In this document: piece after piece, positions 3,395 to 41,856 of the stretch
Numbering within the stretch: the stretch's first letter is position 1
Layout of the letters: each line of letters begins with the position of its first letter
Origin: a virus
IMG/VR virus record: IMGVR_UViG_3300033148_001735
Location: 1 to 41,856 of that record
Strand: one strand, 5' to 3'
Length of the DNA: 41,856 nucleotides
Program-made: the position numbers and the translations under genes
The notes under the pieces: generated by a model
Seen by the model: the letters and a program-made list of their open reading frames with translations, nothing else
The model's database searches: none
Told to the model about the DNA's origin: nothing

Positions 3395-4219
3395 TTATGC
3401 GTCGAAGCTATCGAAGTCCTCCATAACATCAGCCTCTAAGCCTTCCGCTATCTTGTTGATATGACGGCCAAACTTTTCAACTAGTGGCTGGTCGTTCTCT
3501 TCATCATTACCTAGCAAGCCTTTCCAGATGCTCACAGTCTTTTCAAGAGCTGCCTTAATACTAGGAGACATATTAGCAACTGTCTCAGGAGAGCGGAATA
3601 CCTTAACAAGTGTTTCTTGTTGTGCTGGCTTAAGCTTAGTTTCTGATAACCATGCCTTGAATAGGTTGGTCGCGTCGCTCTTTTCGCTCATATAAGAGTA
3701 GCCAGAACCGCGTGTTACCTCTAAGATAGGTGTCCAAGCGTCAACCATAGTCTTATTAATAGTCCAATCTGTTACTAGACCTAAGTCATTACGCACAATA
3801 GTCTTACCTGCACGAATCGGGTTCTCTACAGCTACACGCAAAGCGTCCTGTAAATACTGCAACTGTGCATTGTTATAGACTGGGGTTACTACTTCAAAGC
3901 CTGCAAACGCTTCCACGCCTTCACTAGCTTCGATAGCTTCCACTATTTCAACCGTGAACGAGTCAGGAGCGGGCATACCTTCAAATACGTTGTCTAACGT
4001 AGGGAAAGCAAACGGAATAGCACCCAATAGGATAGTTTGAACCGCTTTCTGGTCTACTTCCAGCGCGTTGCCTTCTTCGTCTACCTTGGTTACTGTACCT
4101 TGGCGAGTCTTAACGATTAGATTACTAGTCACGAAGTTAGAACCATCTACGCGGTTCACTGTAGTAATGGCTGGCGTACCTGCTTCTTCTGTTGGTTGTA
4201 CTGCTTCTTGGTCTGACAT
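3395..4219 (-). CDS. Hypothetical acidic protein, first gene of the leftward unit, 274 aa
   Basis: It starts MSDQEAVQPT close behind a putative promoter. The protein is strongly acidic at both ends: Glu-rich residues 1-15, and a C-terminus of alternating acidic and helical residues ending DVMEDFDSFDA. No signal peptide, membrane segment or known catalytic motif is visible. Middle parts contain Val/Phe-rich strands, and residues about 160-260 are probably helical. I do not recognise a family. Being the first leftward gene and separate from the packaging genes, it may be a regulator of the late unit or an abundant virion or host-interaction protein; nothing in the sequence decides between these. 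Confidence 0.75.
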   Translation of the reverse strand: MSDQEAVQPTEEAGTPAITTVNRVDGSNFVTSNLIVKTRQGTVTKVDEEGNALEVDQKAVQTILLGAIPFAFPTLDNVFEGMPAPDSFTVEIVEAIEASEGVEAFAGFEVVTPVYNNAQLQYLQDALRVAVENPIRAGKTIVRNDLGLVTDWTINKTMVDAWTPILEVTRGSGYSYMSEKSDATNLFKAWLSETKLKPAQQETLVKVFRSPETVANMSPSIKAALEKTVSIWKGLLGNDEENDQPLVEKFGRHINKIAEGLEADVMEDFDSFDA

Positions 4220-4275
4220 GATATATACCTTCTTTAATTAATGGATTAAGTCAGTGCTTCATTGCACTAACAAAC

Positions 4276-4304
4276 ATATTACAGGATCACTTATAACATT
4301 GCAA
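4276..4304 (-). promoter_or_regulatory. Leftward promoter candidate
   Basis: On the minus strand, TTGCAA (4299-4304) and TAATAT (4276-4281) are separated by 17 bases and match the sigma70 -35 and -10 boxes at four of six positions each. An extended -10 alternative, TGT-TATAAG, lies within the spacer. The first leftward ATG is 57 bases downstream at 4219. The match is only moderate. Confidence 0.4.
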
Positions 4305-4342
4305 CCACTAATTACTTATTAATAGGCTAGATAGTGAATTAA

Positions 4343-4357
4343 GCTACTAGGCTACTA
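4343..4357. repeat. 15-bp direct repeat, left copy
   Basis: GCTACTAGGCTACTA is repeated exactly at 4590-4604, and a partial copy (AGGCTACTAA) occurs at 4508-4517. Each full copy precedes one arm of the large inverted repeat on the plus strand. Confidence 0.7.
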
Positions 4358-4368
4358 TTCCTGAATGA

Positions 4369-4409
4369 GATTCCCAAAATCCCCGAAATGCCCAAAACCG
4401 CCACCGATA
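4369..4409 (-). repeat. Iteron-like inverted repeat, left arm
   Basis: Read on the minus strand, the arm has four 9-bp units: GGTGGCGGT, TTTGGGCAT, TTCGGGGAT, TTTGGGAAT, then C. It matches the right arm (4630-4672, plus strand) at 29 of 37 positions without gaps. Each arm points towards its own transcription unit and ends about 140-150 bases before the first gene (4219 or 4811), which suits a shared regulator acting on both promoters. Confidence 0.75.
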
Positions 4410-4429
4410 GGGGGGTCGGGTGGGTCGGG
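4410..4429 (+). promoter_or_regulatory. G-quadruplex motif
   Basis: Four guanine runs (6, 3, 3 and 3 G) are separated by loops of TC, T and TC. This is a canonical three-tetrad quadruplex motif with very short loops, which are generally associated with high stability. It directly abuts the left arm of the inverted repeat and stands out in an otherwise A/T-leaning genome. Confidence 0.75.
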
Positions 4430-4467
4430 TGTAGTCTATAGGCTAGGGACTAGGCTAGTCCATAATA

Positions 4468-4500
4468 GAGAGATATAAGAGAGATAAAGAAAGAGAGATA
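4468..4500. repeat. Three GAGAGATA purine repeats
   Basis: GAGAGATA occurs at 4468-4475, 4479-4486 and 4493-4500 in an almost pure purine tract. The tract is easily melted and lies in the centre of the divergent control region, between the quadruplex motif and the A/T-rich segment. Confidence 0.7.
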
Positions 4501-4589
4501 AAGCATTAGGCTACTAAATTAGATAATAACAAATTGATGATTCTATATATAGGACGTAAACAGCTAAACCCTTCTAGCTTACAGACTTG

Positions 4590-4604
4590 GCTACTAGGCT
4601 ACTA
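4590..4604. repeat. 15-bp direct repeat, right copy
   Basis: Exact second copy of GCTACTAGGCTACTA from 4343-4357, 25 bases before the right arm of the inverted repeat. Confidence 0.7.
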
Positions 4605-4629
4605 ATTCAATATATGGGGCTATAGGTGG

Positions 4630-4672
4630 TATATGGTGGCGGTCTTGAGCATCTTGGGAATCGAGGGAATCC
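4630..4672 (+). repeat. Iteron-like inverted repeat, right arm
   Basis: Plus-strand 9-bp units GGTGGCGGT, CTTGAGCAT, CTTGGGAAT, CGAGGGAAT, then CC. The core GGGAATC occurs at 4656-4662 and 4665-4671, and again at 4722-4728 overlapping the rightward promoter. Counterpart of the arm at 4369-4409. Confidence 0.75.
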
Positions 4673-4716
4673 AAAAAGGAAAAAAGGTATATAAATCAAT
4701 GACTTACATAAATCGG

Positions 4717-4746
4717 TTGACGGGAATCATATTAATATGAGACAAT
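4717..4746 (+). promoter_or_regulatory. Rightward early promoter
   Basis: TTGACG (4717-4722) matches the -35 consensus at five of six positions. After an 18-base spacer, GACAAT (4741-4746) matches the -10 at four of six. The transcript would start near 4753, about 58 bases before the first rightward ATG at 4811. A perfect palindrome fills most of the spacer, which suggests repression or activation at this site. Confidence 0.55.
4727..4740. promoter_or_regulatory. Palindromic operator inside the rightward promoter
   Basis: TCATATTAATATGA is a perfect 14-bp palindrome between the -35 and -10 boxes. A dimeric regulator bound here would block RNA polymerase. GGGAATC (4722-4728) overlaps its left edge by two bases. 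No obvious helix-turn-helix repressor is encoded apart from TerS. Confidence 0.6.
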
Positions 4747-4810
4747 AGGCACTTAATTGATAGACAGATTAATCAATAAATAACAGGGCGGCAAGCCTAG
4801 AGGGTAGTAT

Positions 4811-5086
4811 ATGTCACAAGCTTATTTTGATATAGATAGTATGGTAACGGTGAGAGTGCAGCTTAATAAGAGCAGCAAGCCACAAGCAGCGCGGTTTTGT
4901 CTTAGAGAGGTGCAGAGCGGCAAGATAGGCTTTCTAGTTGAGCCATTAGATCAGCACGTAATAGAAGCAGGCCAGCACTGGCAAGCTAAGATTGAGCAGG
5001 ACGGCCAAGGCTACTTTAAAGCGGAATTGATTAGCAGAGTAGCCAAGCCAAGCCGCGCATCTAATTACCTACGAGCAGCTAGATAA
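4811..5086 (+). CDS. Hypothetical protein, first early gene, 91 aa
   Basis: Starts MSQAYFDIDS; AGAGGG upstream serves as ribosome-binding site. The predicted protein is rich in beta strands (VTVRVQL, IGFLVEPL, HWQAKIEQDGQGYFKAELI) and ends in a basic tail (KPSRASNYLRAAR). A small beta-barrel with a nucleic-acid-binding tail is conceivable, but I do not recognise a family. As the first gene behind the operator-bearing promoter it is a natural candidate for an early regulator or host-takeover protein. Confidence 0.75.
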   Translation: MSQAYFDIDSMVTVRVQLNKSSKPQAARFCLREVQSGKIGFLVEPLDQHVIEAGQHWQAKIEQDGQGYFKAELISRVAKPSRASNYLRAAR

Positions 5087-5119: not shown

Positions 5120-6088
5120 ATGAACCCAATTAATAAGCAGCAAATTAAGCCGAAAGCTAGCCTAGTTATCAATCAACACCAGATACCAGCTACTAGTCAT
5201 AATATAGTATGTGCTATTAGTGGTGTAAGCTATCAAGTTATAGACCAATCAGGTATCCAAGGCTATAAAATAAGCCAACCTATACATCCAATGATGTTAC
5301 CTCACACACTTAATAAGCTAGTGAGTCAGATAGGCGTAGCCATTGAATACAGAGTAGGCGCAATCCTTGCGGCCTTACATCATGCTAAACTAACTAAAAA
5401 CTCTGCCTTGCTTACAGTTGAGCAAATAGAGAAGATCAATTACATTCTAGCTTCTAGCTTAGAGGATGAGGACTGTCTTAGAATGTATGAAGCTATAGGG
5501 CGCGCCACTAACAAGCCTAAGCACACAAGCTATCTAGCTATGATACCTAAGCTAAACTTAATAGCTATCTTAGAACATCACCCTAGCAGAGTAAGAAGCT
5601 TAATGCTGGAATGGCTAAAGGTTATCAATCAAAAGCATGATGCGGACACCGCTAGCTATATCAAGTCTACTTATGAGTCCAGACAGAGAAGCCTAGCTAT
5701 TGATATGGGGCTATCTGATGAGGCTATAACTAAGCTAGCTAATGCCAAGGCTAAGAAGCGCGCACCAATGACAGCTAGCAAGGCTCAAACAATACTAGCT
5801 AAGAGCATCATGGAAGAAGCAAGCCTTTACCCTAACAAAGATTTGAAGTCATTGCAGAAGGCTACCAAACAATTCTCTCATCTACATGAGAAGGTTCAAG
5901 CTAAGCTATTAGACTGCTATGAAGAGGCTTATGCCTTAGCTAAGACTAAAGGAATGATGAATAAAGCTTCTAGTCTTAAATCTGCGTTTATCTATGCTAT
6001 AGACTACTTAAGAGGGGAAGTAATCCCTCATGGTGACTTTGAACTAGACCTAGCCGACTTAGAGACTACTAGCGAAGGGGAAAGCTAA
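5120..6088 (+). CDS. Hypothetical early protein with acidic tail, 322 aa
   Basis: Starts MNPINKQQIK. Residues about 1-60 look beta-rich (IVCAISGVSYQVID). The rest is mostly helical with many Ala/Lys/Leu residues, including a basic patch NAKAKKRAPM near residue 215, and the protein ends in an acidic tail (LADLETTSEGES). No catalytic motif, zinc site or membrane segment is visible. Acidic tails are common on phage DNA-binding proteins that recruit replication partners, but that is only suggestive here. The stop overlaps the next ATG by one base (TAATG), which indicates translational coupling. Confidence 0.75.
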   Translation: MNPINKQQIKPKASLVINQHQIPATSHNIVCAISGVSYQVIDQSGIQGYKISQPIHPMMLPHTLNKLVSQIGVAIEYRVGAILAALHHAKLTKNSALLTVEQIEKINYILASSLEDEDCLRMYEAIGRATNKPKHTSYLAMIPKLNLIAILEHHPSRVRSLMLEWLKVINQKHDADTASYIKSTYESRQRSLAIDMGLSDEAITKLANAKAKKRAPMTASKAQTILAKSIMEEASLYPNKDLKSLQKATKQFSHLHEKVQAKLLDCYEEAYALAKTKGMMNKASSLKSAFIYAIDYLRGEVIPHGDFELDLADLETTSEGES

Positions 6089-6850: not shown

Positions 6851-7140
6851 TGAGCCAGCCAATCTATAAACGCCATCAAGAAGTAATAGCTTATCTAATG
6901 AAAGAAATGACTAGCTACCATGCTATGATAGACCCTGAGCTTATGCCAAGCAAGGCTACACTAGTTACTATGCTAGCAGGTGAATTTGAGTCTAAGGACT
7001 ACGAAGCTATCAAATGTATGATAGATACCTTTATGACTCTCTATGTAGAGAAGCTGCTTAAGACTATAGCAAGCCATGAGAGTGTTATAGTTGCACAAGC
7101 TAAGAGAGTCATAACCCAATTAGAAGAGGATGCTAGCTAA
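6847..7140 (+). CDS. Hypothetical protein of a three-gene paralogue cluster, 97 aa
   Basis: Starts MMSQPIYKRH, with AAGGAG upstream of the start. The core MPSKATLVTMLAGEF plus EAIKCMIDTF follows the pattern of the two preceding genes. All helical, without Cys pairs or catalytic motifs. Its stop overlaps the start of the helicase gene by one base, so the product is probably made together with the helicase. Function unknown. Confidence 0.65.
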   Translation: MMSQPIYKRHQEVIAYLMKEMTSYHAMIDPELMPSKATLVTMLAGEFESKDYEAIKCMIDTFMTLYVEKLLKTIASHESVIVAQAKRVITQLEEDAS

Positions 7141-9185
7141 TGTTTAAGCCATCACTAAAGACCGCTAAGGTCGCGCCAACTATCAAGACTACAGTTAGTA
7201 CGGTAGCTGATGATAAGCTAACTAAGAATGCAGCTACTCAAGCATTGAGGGCAGTTAATAAAGCTAATAAGCTACCAGCTTTCAAGCCTACAACACTTAA
7301 GCCTGCGCCTATCAATGATAAGCTCAAGCAAATCAAGGAAGAGCCTATAGAGCAGAAGCTAGCCAACGAGATAGATGCTATTAGGACTAAGAAGGCTAAA
7401 TGGGTAGACGAAGTTAAGCCTACACTCAAGCGCGCCAGTCTCCCTGCGTTCGTGCCTAAAGCTAAGCTACCTAGTATCCGTCCTGTCCCTATGGCTGTGA
7501 CTATAGTGCCTGATGATGAGCTAGAGGGTAACTTCAAGCTAGTGGACACGTATGGCAATATCATAGAGCTAGGACTTAGACAGCAAGAGGGCGTTGATAA
7601 AGCTGTATTAGGGCAGGACTTCTGCTTAGTTGGTAAGGCTGGTACTGGTAAGACTACCACTAACCAATCAATGATGCTTAACCTATTCAAGTACTGCATG
7701 GATAGAATAAACATCATAAGCTACCGTATAGTGAACTCTCAAGGTGCAAGGATTGACGCGCCTAGCGTAGCAGTAGTAAGCTACACGAATCGTGCCACCA
7801 ATAACATGCGTCGCGCTCTTATGGCTAACCCTGAGCTAGCAGAGATCCTAGGCCAAGGCTTGAACATCACCACGGTTCATAACCTACTAGAATACACTAG
7901 GGATGAGCGTTATAATGAAGAGCTAGACAAGATGACCATGCAGTACTTCCCTACTAAGGATAAGAACAATAAGCTAGACGTTACTATCCTTATAGTGGAA
8001 GAAGCTACAATGATAGCTATGGCTGTGGATAAGGCACTAGGTAATGAGCTTATGGACGCTCTTAATGATGATGTGCAGGTTATCTACTTAGGTGACATCA
8101 ATCAGTTACCTGCTATAGGTGGCAAGGGCGCGCTTAACTACGCTCTTACACAAGCCCCTGTCATTGAGCTTACACAAGTGCATCGTCAAGCTATGGATAA
8201 CCCTATCATCCGTCAAGCTCTTAACTGTATAGATGGTAAGGCAGTAACTACCGATGTGAATGATAAAGGTGTAGGCGTTAGAGTTATGTCTATGCGTAAG
8301 AATGGCAAGCCTGTAGTGGTTACTGGCCGAGAGCTTAAGCTATGGATGCACGGCTTATTCTCTAAGCTAATAGGCACATCAGAATACAACCATGAAACCG
8401 ACATGATCCTATGCCCTTACAATAAGAGTGATGGTAACATAGTAGGCACAGAGGATATCAATGCTAACATAGCTACTACCCTAGCTAGGCATAGAGGCGT
8501 TGAAGTTTATGAGATTATAGCTAACTACCGCGCACTGTATCTTAGCGTAGGTGATCGAGTCTATGTTAATAAACTTGAAGGTATAGTTACAGCTATCGCA
8601 ACTAATGGCGCTTATATGGGTAAAGCCCCGCAAGATTCTAGTAAGAGCCTAACCTATTATGGTATCAATGACAGCCTAGAGTCTTCTGATGAAGAGTTTG
8701 ACCTAGATGAGAATGACCTAGCCTCAGACTTTGATTACTCCAAGCTAGATATTAGTGAGCTTAGTGATGAAGATGGTGAATCCGCCACTCGTAAGGCTAG
8801 CCACATAGTAGATGTAGAGCTAGAAGATGGCCGCACTGTTACGCTAGAGAAAGCTGCCGACTTCGATGCTAGCAATTATAGCCTAGGCTATGCGCTTACA
8901 GTACACAAGGCTCAAGGTTCGGAATGGCCACGAGTCTACTTCGTATTGCATGATTGCCATAGCTCTATGAAGTTTAGAGAGCTAGTTTATACTGCTATGA
9001 CTAGACCAAGAGAGAATCTGATTATCCTCAGTCAGCCTCACACCCTAGCTAAAGCTATTGCTAACCCTAGGATTAAAGGTACTACCTTAGAAGAGAAGAT
9101 TGAGTTCTTTAATGGTGGCTACTTAGACTCTAGTATCAAGGTATTCCCTAGAATGAGAGGCAATAGCCGCTATGACAAGAGTTGA
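7140..9185 (+). CDS. SF1B DNA helicase (RecD2/Dda-like)
   Basis: A 681-residue ATP-driven DNA helicase, expected to act in phage replication or recombination. Walker A is GKAGTGKT (165-172, Lys171). Walker B is ILIVEEATM (Glu287/Glu288). Motif III is YLGDINQLPAIGG (near 316) and motif IV TQVHRQ. Motif V is TVHKAQGSEW (His589, Gln592) and motif VI VYTAMTRPREN. The order and wording fit the RecD/Dda branch of superfamily 1. The first about 130 residues are an extra, basic Pro/Lys/Ala-rich region with two LPAFxP motifs (44-50 and 100-106). A Ser/Asp/Glu-rich insert at about 511-550 lies in the last RecA-like half before motif V. Coupled to its neighbours on both sides. Confidence 0.9.
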   Translation: MFKPSLKTAKVAPTIKTTVSTVADDKLTKNAATQALRAVNKANKLPAFKPTTLKPAPINDKLKQIKEEPIEQKLANEIDAIRTKKAKWVDEVKPTLKRASLPAFVPKAKLPSIRPVPMAVTIVPDDELEGNFKLVDTYGNIIELGLRQQEGVDKAVLGQDFCLVGKAGTGKTTTNQSMMLNLFKYCMDRINIISYRIVNSQGARIDAPSVAVVSYTNRATNNMRRALMANPELAEILGQGLNITTVHNLLEYTRDERYNEELDKMTMQYFPTKDKNNKLDVTILIVEEATMIAMAVDKALGNELMDALNDDVQVIYLGDINQLPAIGGKGALNYALTQAPVIELTQVHRQAMDNPIIRQALNCIDGKAVTTDVNDKGVGVRVMSMRKNGKPVVVTGRELKLWMHGLFSKLIGTSEYNHETDMILCPYNKSDGNIVGTEDINANIATTLARHRGVEVYEIIANYRALYLSVGDRVYVNKLEGIVTAIATNGAYMGKAPQDSSKSLTYYGINDSLESSDEEFDLDENDLASDFDYSKLDISELSDEDGESATRKASHIVDVELEDGRTVTLEKAADFDASNYSLGYALTVHKAQGSEWPRVYFVLHDCHSSMKFRELVYTAMTRPRENLIILSQPHTLAKAIANPRIKGTTLEEKIEFFNGGYLDSSIKVFPRMRGNSRYDKS

Positions 9186-12737: not shown

Positions 12738-13636
12738 AGCTTAATGCAATAGCTAAGGCTATCAGAGAACACGACACCAAGCTAATCAAAGGCCCTAAGA
12801 TACTAGTCTTCGGTCCTCCTAAGTCTGGTAAGACTCGCATGGTAGGTACTATAGCTAAGATGCCTGAGTATGATAAGGTAGTATGGTTCGACAACGAAAA
12901 CGGTATAGAGACCCTAGTCTCTGCTGTCAATGCTGATGGCACTCCTCTCCTTACTGAGGCAGAGATGGAGAAGATAGAAGTTATCCAGATGGATGATACT
13001 AAGGACTCCCCTCTTGCAGCAGAGACTATGCTTAAAGCTTTCTCTTCTAAGAAGCCTGTAGCTATATGCTCTACGCATGGTAAGGTAGAATGTAAAGAGT
13101 GTAAGGTAGCTAAAGAAGAATTTATTAGTTTCTCTTTACCTAGCTCTGACCATCGTACTGCTGTGGTTATCGACTCACTTAGTCAGCTAGGTGATAGTGT
13201 CTTCAACCTTGAGCTACTCAAGTATGACTACAATCATAACATGAAGTATTGGGGTGAGTTCTATACTGATATGGGTAATCTACTTAGTATGGTACAGACA
13301 GCACGTTGTACTGTGGTAGCTATCACCCATGAGATAAGTGTAGAAGAAGATAAGACCCAAAAGGTTTTAGAGGTAGCGCCTCTGTGTGGTAGTAAGCCAT
13401 TCAGTCGTAAGATAGGTAAGTACTTCGGGCATGTAATCTATAAGACTATAGAGCTTAAGAAGTATAAAGCTATCTCAACTGCATTGTGGAAGCCTACTGT
13501 TAGAGCAGGCACACGTACCAATGTAGATGTAAACGCCCTGCCTGACCCAACTATGGCAGACATATTAACTCCTAACACTACGGTGGTAGAAGCTAACAAA
13601 TCGCAGGTAAAGAAGCCCGCAACCATTAACCGATAA
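12734..13636 (+). CDS. Sak4-like RecA-fold ATPase (single-strand annealing/recombination)
   Basis: A 300-residue P-loop ATPase: Walker A GPPKSGKT (27-34, Lys33), DNENG (53-57) after the next strand, and Walker B TAVVIDSLSQL (Asp147). The compact single-domain RecA-like fold between a nuclease and a putative SSB gene fits the Sak4 class of phage recombinases. Residues 112-123 hold C-x2-H-x4-C-x2-C (CSTHGKVECKEC), a candidate zinc site inserted between the nucleotide-binding strands. The C-terminal 40 residues are Pro/Thr/Lys-rich and probably disordered. An alternative reading is a general phage AAA ATPase without annealing activity. Confidence 0.75.
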   Translation: MKLNAIAKAIREHDTKLIKGPKILVFGPPKSGKTRMVGTIAKMPEYDKVVWFDNENGIETLVSAVNADGTPLLTEAEMEKIEVIQMDDTKDSPLAAETMLKAFSSKKPVAICSTHGKVECKECKVAKEEFISFSLPSSDHRTAVVIDSLSQLGDSVFNLELLKYDYNHNMKYWGEFYTDMGNLLSMVQTARCTVVAITHEISVEEDKTQKVLEVAPLCGSKPFSRKIGKYFGHVIYKTIELKKYKAISTALWKPTVRAGTRTNVDVNALPDPTMADILTPNTTVVEANKSQVKKPATINR

Positions 13637-13678: not shown

Positions 13679-14239
13679 ATGAGTGATGAAAATTCAGTAT
13701 TAGACAGCGAAGACATGTTAGACTTTGATAACGTAGATATGGCTACAGTAGAAGAGTTGCCTGATTTTATTACCCCGCCTAATGGTAATTACGCTTGTGC
13801 TATTCCTAGCTGCCGCGTTGATATCATCAATCCTACGGAAGGTAATCCTTTCCAAGCTGTTAAGTTTATCTACCAAATCATGGGAGTGCTTAGCGTAGAC
13901 GGTGAAGTAGAGCCACAGGAAATGGCTTTGTTTGAAGAAACCTTCATGCCTAAGACCAAGGACGACTACTCTATGAAACTATTGCGTAAGCGTCTAGCCT
14001 CTTTAACTCCTGAAGAGATGGATCCTAGCACGCCTGTACCTGAGCAGCTAGCTTACATCCAAGAGACTTATAAGGAAGCTGCTACTTGTAATGTTATTAC
14101 TAAGCTAACTTCTTCTACGTCTAAGAAGAACGGTAAGACCTATGAGAATTTAAACGTCTCACAGACTTACGCTCTTGATGATGTGTATCCTCTACCAGAA
14201 GGTAAAGAGTTCTACATCTACGTGCCTAAAGAAAGCTAG
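13679..14239 (+). CDS. Putative single-stranded DNA-binding protein, 186 aa
   Basis: Starts MSDENSVLDS and has an acidic N-terminus, then beta-rich segments (GNYACAIPSCRVDI, FQAVKFIYQIMG, ATCNVITKLTSSTSKKNGKTYENL) compatible with an OB fold, ending in YIYVPKES. It directly follows the Sak4-like ATPase; Sak4 and SSB genes are often neighbours and cooperate. The classical acidic SSB tail is absent. The 42-base gap before it contains the inverted repeat AGCCTA-TC-TAGGCT (13636-13649), so expression may be set separately. The call rests on context and fold impression. Confidence 0.5.
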   Translation: MSDENSVLDSEDMLDFDNVDMATVEELPDFITPPNGNYACAIPSCRVDIINPTEGNPFQAVKFIYQIMGVLSVDGEVEPQEMALFEETFMPKTKDDYSMKLLRKRLASLTPEEMDPSTPVPEQLAYIQETYKEAATCNVITKLTSSTSKKNGKTYENLNVSQTYALDDVYPLPEGKEFYIYVPKES

Positions 14240-40258: not shown

Positions 40259-41856
40259 TAGGTTCTACTCCGGGTTGTGTAGTAGGTTGGCCAGGCTGCT
40301 GAGGGGCAGCAGTAGGCTTGAATTGGTGCATATCTGGTACGCCTATTAGGCCACCAAAGTAAGCGTATAGTTCGAATAGCATAGGATCTTGTAGAATCAT
40401 AGGGTTAGCTGTGAAAGCCTGTAGCATCATATTGAAGCTCTCAGGATTAACCATCTTACTCTTAGGAGTATAGCCATCAGCCAGCTTGAACTCTATTAGC
40501 GCCTTGCGTAATGTAGCAGGATTAATCTCTAATGCCTTACTACTAGATGGTGCTAGCATCTTACCCTTAGGAGCATACATAAGGATGTTAAGCTTAAGCT
40601 GGTGCTTGATAGAAGTCATTACTTGACTCTCTACTCTAAGGGCTAGGTTACGAGTTCTGTCACTAGCATTACCAGATATCTCTTGGAACTCACCTAGGGT
40701 ACGATTACCCTTAGTCTGGATACCTTGCTGAGAAGCAGACATACCAGTAGACTGGTCAGCTATCTGCATAAGGTTCTGCATGTCTCCTAGGAGAGAAGCT
40801 GTGCCGCTATTATCAAATGGTATCTGATGATAGACTTGACCAGCATTTAGACTATCTAGTCTGAACGTCTGAGTCATAGGTATCTTAGCAGCAGGATCAC
40901 GGCTATTAACATCACGACTACGCAAGTAATTAGGATTGTAGATAGCTCTATCAGAGATAGCTCTACGAGATGAAGCCAGTCTAGCATTAAGCAATTCACT
41001 AGCAGCATCCTGCCAAGGAAGGATTACTTCACTAAGGCTTTTAGTCTGATAGCCGAATCCATCTTCTACAGGCTGTCCCATATAGATAGGCAATGAGTTA
41101 TTAGGCGTAAAGACAGGAGAGATATGAATGATATGCTGCATGTTAATGATAACTAGCTTAAGCACTTGTACCTTATCACCATTAGGACGAATCATACCGA
41201 AGTCTTCTGGGATAGCCCTTACGTACATAACAGACTTAAGATATTTATTCTTATGATCTTTGTTCTTGTTACCAGTACTAGCATCCTGACCTATCCAAGT
41301 AAACCAGTCTACATTATCAGAGTCTTTAGTAGGATTATACTTAGCTACTTCTGGACGCTCAACGAAATATTCTTCACTAGGATAGGTAGACGCTAGTGCA
41401 TCTTTAACATTGATAGCCCCTGCGTATTCACCACTCAAGTCTTCTAGCTCTTCTGCTAGCTCCTTAAGCTGGATACGAGTGATGTTCTCATGGTAGCCTA
41501 TATAGTCACCTTCAGTGGATACCTTAGCAGGCGCAGCTGAGTAGTCCCAGAATAGATTATACATATCCATTCCTTTAATACCATTGATGTACTCAAAGCT
41601 AGTATCTATGCTAGGAGTATCACCAACAGTAGCGCTATTAGTAGCTATAGTAACTGTTCTGTAAGGACTCCATGTCACCTCAGCCCCATGAAAGTTATAC
41701 TTAGCGCCGTCTAATAAGAAGCGCAATAGCTCCTGCTTCCACTTACCTATGTTACTGTGGCTAGCCATTAGAGCTTCCATCTGCTCTCCTGCTTCAGACT
41801 CTTCCTTAGAGGTAATTACTCCAAAGATAGGATAGCCTGATAGGAACACATCACTA
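40230..41856 (-). CDS. Portal protein, main part (gene continues at 1-365)
   Basis: Carries the C-terminal 539 residues of the 625-residue portal; the N-terminus is encoded at 365-1. A helical and beta mixture with VTWSPYRTVTI, DMYNLFWDYSAAP, LPWQDAASELLNARLASSRR and DMQNLMQIADQSTGM (the last resembling the long-helix region of podovirus portals). The C-terminus is Pro/Gln-rich (AAPQQPGQPTTQPGVEP). It should form the dodecameric ring that connects head, terminase and tail. The frame apparently opening at 41849 is an artefact of the window end. Confidence 0.85.
   Translation of the reverse strand, partial: SDVFLSGYPIFGVITSKEESEAGEQMEALMASHSNIGKWKQELLRFLLDGAKYNFHGAEVTWSPYRTVTIATNSATVGDTPSIDTSFEYINGIKGMDMYNLFWDYSAAPAKVSTEGDYIGYHENITRIQLKELAEELEDLSGEYAGAINVKDALASTYPSEEYFVERPEVAKYNPTKDSDNVDWFTWIGQDASTGNKNKDHKNKYLKSVMYVRAIPEDFGMIRPNGDKVQVLKLVIINMQHIIHISPVFTPNNSLPIYMGQPVEDGFGYQTKSLSEVILPWQDAASELLNARLASSRRAISDRAIYNPNYLRSRDVNSRDPAAKIPMTQTFRLDSLNAGQVYHQIPFDNSGTASLLGDMQNLMQIADQSTGMSASQQGIQTKGNRTLGEFQEISGNASDRTRNLALRVESQVMTSIKHQLKLNILMYAPKGKMLAPSSSKALEINPATLRKALIEFKLADGYTPKSKMVNPESFNMMLQAFTANPMILQDPMLFELYAYFGGLIGVPDMHQFKPTAAPQQPGQPTTQPGVEPNAPPSQPAV
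41743..41856. repeat. Terminal direct repeat, right copy (assembly overlap)
   Basis: Second copy of the 114-base sequence found at 1-114. Joining the two copies restores one uninterrupted 625-codon portal gene. See the left copy for interpretation. Confidence 0.95.

Follow-up and report, generated by a model that had tools for sequence, protein, structure and literature searches.

The DNA analysed here is a single viral record of 41,856 bases (hereafter the window), which probably represents a complete genome, either as a circular assembly or with a terminal repeat, because its first 114 bases (1-114) recur exactly at its end (41743-41856). The gene set is of the podovirus type, with terL on the minus strand (369-1901) and genes for a Dda-like helicase, an exonuclease, a Sak4-like protein, a single-strand-binding protein and a DNA polymerase on the plus strand. 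Two divergent gene blocks are separated by a gap of 591 bp, and in this gap, close to the replication module, sits a pair of inverted repeat arms. The first gene to the left (3395-4219, minus strand) encodes a protein of 274 aa, and its family, referred to as p274, adjoins the arms in nearly all relatives. On the plus strand to the right follow a gene for a 91-aa protein of unknown function (4811-5086), with homologues found only in two related loci (L002 and L003), a gene for a 322-aa protein (5120-6088, p322 family) and, further downstream, the Dda/RecD-like helicase of the replication module (7140-9185, phrog_325).

The flanking proteins have few recognizable features. Searches with the 274-aa and 322-aa proteins as single sequences found no relatives, and comparison of the flanking proteins with Pfam and PHROGs gave nothing meaningful besides phrog_15550 (function unknown), which matches 19 of the 27 p274-family members; none of the flanking proteins tested matched an initiator in Pfam. 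The 322-aa protein of the window is fast-evolving and has no known domain, and it joins the p322 family by profile comparison alone and with its first half only (probability 98%). A search for fold matches in the PDB was negative for p274, using the predicted model of a relative (pLDDT 91), and for p322, the predicted model of which is poor (pLDDT 69.5). An Rfam search of the region likewise gave no match.

The repeat search placed the arms at 4369-4405 (minus strand) and 4635-4671 (plus strand). They are 37 nt long, complementary at 29 of 37 positions (78%) and 229 nt apart. A preliminary description of this DNA had already pointed out the pair, and it withstands statistical scrutiny: with ungapped +1/-1 scoring it reaches 21, a value seen in none of 400 exact dinucleotide shuffles of 4220-4810 (mean 10.6, maximum 17), and it is the best-scoring inverted repeat of the whole 41.9 kb window at gaps of up to 700. 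The limits first given for the arms (4369-4409 and 4630-4672) ran slightly past the matching sequence at 4409, 4630 and 4672. Both arms begin at their inner end with the 9-mer GGTGGCGGT, identical in the two (4397-4405 and 4635-4643), and continue outward with three further 9-bp units. In the left arm these are, leftward on the minus strand, TTTGGGCAT (4388-4396), TTCGGGGAT (4379-4387) and TTTGGGAAT (4370-4378); in the right arm, rightward on the plus strand, they are CTTGAGCAT (4644-4652), CTTGGGAAT (4653-4661) and CGAGGGAAT (4662-4670). The 9-bp period suspected earlier is real, since 9 was the best lag and none of 2000 joint column permutations, in which the two arms are kept matched to each other, equalled its score at any lag. 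However, the GGGNAT-type ending that had been ascribed to most units is found in only three units per arm, the inner 9-mer being off this consensus. A weight matrix built from the six outer units detected tandem clusters at the arms and nowhere else in the genome. As expected of an iteron origin, short tandem direct repeats are restricted to one locus in the window.

The spacer between the arms (4406-4634, 229 bp) harbors the AT-richest 50-mer of the interval at 4498-4547, a putative unwinding element with 78% AT that is centred on the midpoint at 4520. The adjacent AT-rich element expected of an iteron origin is seen here as AT-richness. Several other repeats lie in this area. A 9-mer, GGGTCGGGT, is present as two exact copies in tandem immediately inside the left arm (4413-4430, plus strand; read from the sequence), and the right arm lacks a counterpart. 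Direct repeats of GGCTACTA (GCTACTAGGCTACTA twice) occur at 4343-4358, 4507-4516 and 4589-4604, that is, outside the left arm and in the spacer, and a purine-rich tandem of AAGAGAGATAAAG units occupies 4477-4503, just left of the AT core.

Relatives of the phage were collected via terL. The nearest described ones are Polaromonas phage Tiera, EBPR podovirus 3 and the PaP2/119X/PaMx41 group. A DNA search of the region among annotated phages gave no match, and no relative was found in bacterial genome assemblies or contigs, which thus lend no support to an episomal state. An unbiased inverted-repeat scan of the helicase-to-terL region of 46 loci mostly returned one pair well above the shuffles. 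The region was considered complete in 36 relatives (p274-family gene on the plus strand, at least 900 bp upstream of the p274 gene), and 28 of these 36 carry an inverted pair scoring at least 17, with shuffled maxima of 14-18. These counts include near-identical contigs (e.g. L060, L062 and L067), the non-redundant set comprising 27 loci, and one of the 28 scoring loci (L031) owes its score to two similar promoters, not arms. Together with L023, whose pair is close together and off pattern, L031 was omitted from most family statistics, yet both are still included among the 27 loci used for the lag statistic described below. About a fifth of the complete relatives have no significant ungapped pair. 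The spacers of most relatives measure about 150-370 bp. Three further relatives were found through the helicase. L109 displays all features (best lag 9, inverted repeat score 18, gap 275, AT offset +6), whereas L175 has two of the features and L119 none.

The short period also recurs in the family. In the right arms of the 27 non-redundant loci, autocorrelation was raised at lag 9 (z = 7.2) and at lag 18 (z = 3.5), although these values assume independent positions and should be taken as a guide only. The best lag was most commonly 9 (12 of 25 phages) and was 8 in 6 of 25, so that 18 of 25 have a best lag of 8 or 9. Joint column permutation of both arms yields about 10% per lag, which puts the tail probability at about 2e-6 when lag 9 is counted and at 3e-8 when lags 8 and 9 are counted together. 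Arm letters are not the same in most phages, including relatives that share the flanking genes, but the two arms agree within one phage. Examples of such units are repeated CTGTAGATC in L082, GATTGGCAT GATCGGCAT in L084, GAGGTAATC GAGGTGATT in L052 and ATAACGAAC ATCCCGTAC in Tiera. The question raised in the preliminary description, whether the arms are conserved in relatives, thus has a divided answer: where flanking genes are shared the letters mostly differ, but the architecture is conserved. Judged from these comparisons, the locus is a family-wide, origin-like element with a conserved layout and changing letters, shared by dozens of uncultivated relatives. Arms and spacers showed no clear column-wise difference in conservation within two sets of close relatives.

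Cultured phages of the group display the layout to different degrees. In Tiera (L024), arms with 9-bp units are found at 13614-13636 and 14064-14086. The same phage carries a perfect 72-bp tandem duplication (L024 13929-14072, record positions 43928-44071) that covers the G-rich inner block and ends in the right arm. PaP2 (L020) and L015, read by eye, seem to have 10-bp units, with pairs that are weaker or differently arranged and with a reversed p274 gene. PaP2 additionally possesses four 10-bp tandem units of the CTAATCCTGG type (L020 1988-2027); these lie elsewhere than its putative origin arrays, in the gap that separates p04 from the small terminase gene. The spacer of L006 contains extra tandem repeats, GGTAGTAGGTGGATA and 12-bp TGTAGCTTCTAG units, at 4821-4891 and 4980-5027.

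Irrespective of the core motif described below, the AT-richest 50-mer lies at most 54 bp from the arm midpoint in 25 of 28 phages, with a median AT content of 0.83, and an alignment of four close relatives shows a conserved AT-rich block between the arms. Words of the TTTATGTGTGTA and CAAATTTTTT types were the most enriched in 27 spacers, above most shuffled maxima. The combined core motif TTTATGTGTGTA-N-CAAATTTTTT, at a threshold of at least 18 of 22, has 12 matches in 11.3 kb of arms and spacers, all on one strand, and none in 418.8 kb outside; a few of the 12 are overlapping registers of one site, and as the motif was derived from these very spacers, the contrast is partly built in. At the centre, the strand-specific motif occurs in about a third of the relatives. 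A less specific variant, AAGGGTATCAAATTTTTT, is found in other phages. In the window itself no core motif is recognizable above chance, the agreement being limited to the position of the AT-rich stretch. As an independent check, 2.9 million viral contigs were scanned starting from the motif: 8 contigs matched, of which 5 were known, one (L100) proved to be a new family member and 2 were unrelated. L100 encodes p274, p322 and the helicase, and its core is flanked on either side by 9-bp TGATC/TGACC units (arrays identified by eye), although its ungapped inverted repeat is not significant. The two unrelated contigs (L097 and L099) contain neither family genes nor arms and are probably chance matches.

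In nearly all relatives, genes of the p274 and p322 families are found on the flanks of the arms. The p322 gene precedes the helicase gene, and in several relatives it is the gene beside the left arm. It evolves faster than its neighbours; between L057 and L077, for example, the p322 similarity is 0.71, compared to 0.99 for p274. Arm similarity tracked the similarity of none of the flanking proteins, with too few close pairs available for this comparison. From its position, one may guess that p322 is perhaps the initiator.

Several explanations can be considered for mirrored arrays in a divergent intergenic region. The arrays could be operators at which a phage regulator controls two divergent early promoters jointly. 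In many phages there are indeed sigma-70-like promoters outward of both arms, the -35 box often being 0-110 bp away from the end of the arm, and in L007, L057, L060, L069, L072, L077 and L088 an arm is directly upstream of p322 with no convincing gene in between. These promoters are strong in many relatives and weak in the window, where the leftward candidate TTGCAA-17-TAATAT (4277-4305, minus strand), 64 bp outside the left arm, has a score of 8.2 and is absent from a simple consensus scan, and the rightward candidate TTGACG-18-GACAAT (4717-4746, plus strand), 45 bp outside the right arm, reaches 9/12, which is not above shuffled expectation. However, the conserved spacing between array and promoter or gene that would be expected of an operator pair was not found among the relatives. 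Distances from arm to promoter range from -18 to +221 bp; the right-hand p274 start lies 143-1222 bp from its arm, and for p322 and the opposite arm the interval is mostly 73-1789 bp. Promoter (-18 to +221 bp) and gene (73-1789 bp) distances are thus too variable for an activator with fixed spacing or a repressor overlapping the promoter. For the same reason, the similar distances of the two arms to the first ATG (about 150 and 139 bases), correctly measured in the preliminary description and used there to argue for a shared regulator, are a meaningless coincidence. Nor would a pair of operators be expected to enclose, at its midpoint, an AT-rich core that carries a strand-specific motif.

In L074 the p274 gene runs in the opposite direction, towards the arms. 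This locus retains the AT core and the inverted pair (score 21), and 9-bp units can be made out by eye, the automatic lag test not being clear. On its right-hand side the right array is kept despite the reversed gene, and no rightward promoter scores above 9 there. The arrays are thus not confined to loci in which both flanking genes diverge. We observed p274-family genes reversed with respect to terL in three loci (L074 5767-6399; L020 380-1105, which is PaP2 p01; L015 5884-6498), and because of this reversal the point of divergent transcription is shifted off the arms there. Taken by itself, the operator explanation, which is the main rival of an origin, therefore appears unlikely, though not negligible. 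In many iteron replicons, the initiator also regulates one or more flanking promoters, and the nearby promoters together with the origin-like core would be compatible with such a double role; we regard this combination as quite improbable, and its right-hand part fails in L074.

All readings other than an origin, an operator pair or both combined share a small residual probability. One could propose that the small terminase recognises the region as a packaging or terminus site, since the terminase genes are about 2-4 kb away and the putative arrays of PaP2 lie on either side of the ends of its record. Yet the PaP2 record has no end repeat, the ends of the Tiera record are elsewhere (between gene 55 and terS), the distance to terL varies from 1.7 to 3.8 kb, and inverted arrays with an AT core between them are not required for packaging, which makes this explanation very unlikely. 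The region is partly of low complexity and slippage can yield tandem 9-mers, so that one might finally think of a chance or simple-repeat artefact. This is extremely improbable given that 0 of 400 and 0 of 2000 shuffles matched in the window and that the arrangement recurs in dozens of divergent phages; the family statistics refute it.

We therefore favour a replication origin over an operator pair because of the AT-rich midpoint core with its strand-specific motif, the variable distances and the retention of the arrays in L074, although the same protein may also act as a regulator. The preliminary description named two functions, a shared regulator and an origin-binding protein. Comparison across the family speaks for the origin, and the argument from equal distances, which are not conserved, is lost for the regulator. 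From sequence comparison, it is reasonably probable that 4369-4671 is the iteron-type replication origin of this podovirus or an essential part of it. How the proposed origin would be bound and melted, by which initiator, and where and in which direction replication would initiate, we infer as follows. Two arrays of contiguous 9-bp iterons, facing outward and 229 bp apart, flank the AT-rich core. Both arrays would be covered by an initiator that the phage encodes, possibly p322 (5120-6088) or a different early protein, and the two nucleoprotein complexes would strain and then melt the core between them. The phage helicase and DNA polymerase encoded downstream could then be loaded at the melted core, possibly in a bidirectional manner.

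DnaA boxes (TTATNCACA) are present in 0 of 28 phages, and the window contains only two lax matches, far off and equal in number to chance expectation, so the earlier statement that the motif is not a DnaA box was correct. IHF sites were found in 2 of 28 phages only. We also considered GC skew, which follows transcription, also in the reversed gene of L074, and therefore speaks neither for nor against an origin.

Short contiguous units at two places are known from the satellite phage P4, where one phage protein, the primase-helicase that serves as initiator, binds units of about 8 bp at both ori and crr. Whereas these two sites are kilobases apart, the arrays in the window are separated by only about 230 bp and mirrored. 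In the lambda origin, a 38-bp AT-rich sequence is joined to four 18-bp iterons (PMC3349717). It resembles the present element in having tandem repeats next to an AT-rich stretch, recognised in lambda by a phage initiator (here putative). In lambda, however, the 18-bp iterons form a single array that lies within gene O and adjoins the AT stretch on one side, whereas the element in the window is intergenic and has its AT core enclosed by two mirrored arrays, each made of contiguous 9-bp units. The PLE satellite of V. cholerae has an iteron origin bound by its own RepA, a RepA_N protein (PMC7145576). The resemblance lies in repeats that occupy non-coding DNA of a phage-related element and that, in PLE, are bound by a self-encoded initiator. 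They differ in that repeat 3 of PLE contains 13-bp inverted sub-repeats and is bound by RepA_N, whereas the proteins flanking the arms here have no Pfam initiator match. Closest to the window are the Fredfastierviridae (Pseudomonas phages PaP2, 119X, PaMx41 and Shea) and Polaromonas phage Tiera, with related terL, helicase, p274 and p322 family genes; Tiera shares arms with 9-bp units, whereas PaP2 has seemingly 10-bp units and a weak pair. More tentatively, the family might represent a new origin architecture of tailed phages, in which mirrored arrays of contiguous 8-10-bp iterons with fast-changing letters and a constant layout enclose a conserved strand-specific AT core and are served by a p322-family initiator without known fold; we consider this possible but somewhat doubtful.

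In the available parts of the Tiera literature we found no description of an origin, nor is there one in the paper on Shea (PMC13348215), and the open-access literature contained no description of this element or of any origin for this podovirus group. Within the limits of that literature, apparently no replication origin has been described for this widespread, little-studied group. The region offers a short, concrete target in cultured members, namely Tiera and the PaP2-type phages, the layout being weaker in the latter, and it points to a candidate initiator of unknown fold. Shea, a PaP2-like relative in this group, persists as an episome (PMC13348215) and therefore needs a working origin, so the element could bear on the episomal persistence of a PaP2-like phage. 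With iteron letters that change within a constant layout, the family would also be a good system in which to follow the joint change of an initiator and its sites.
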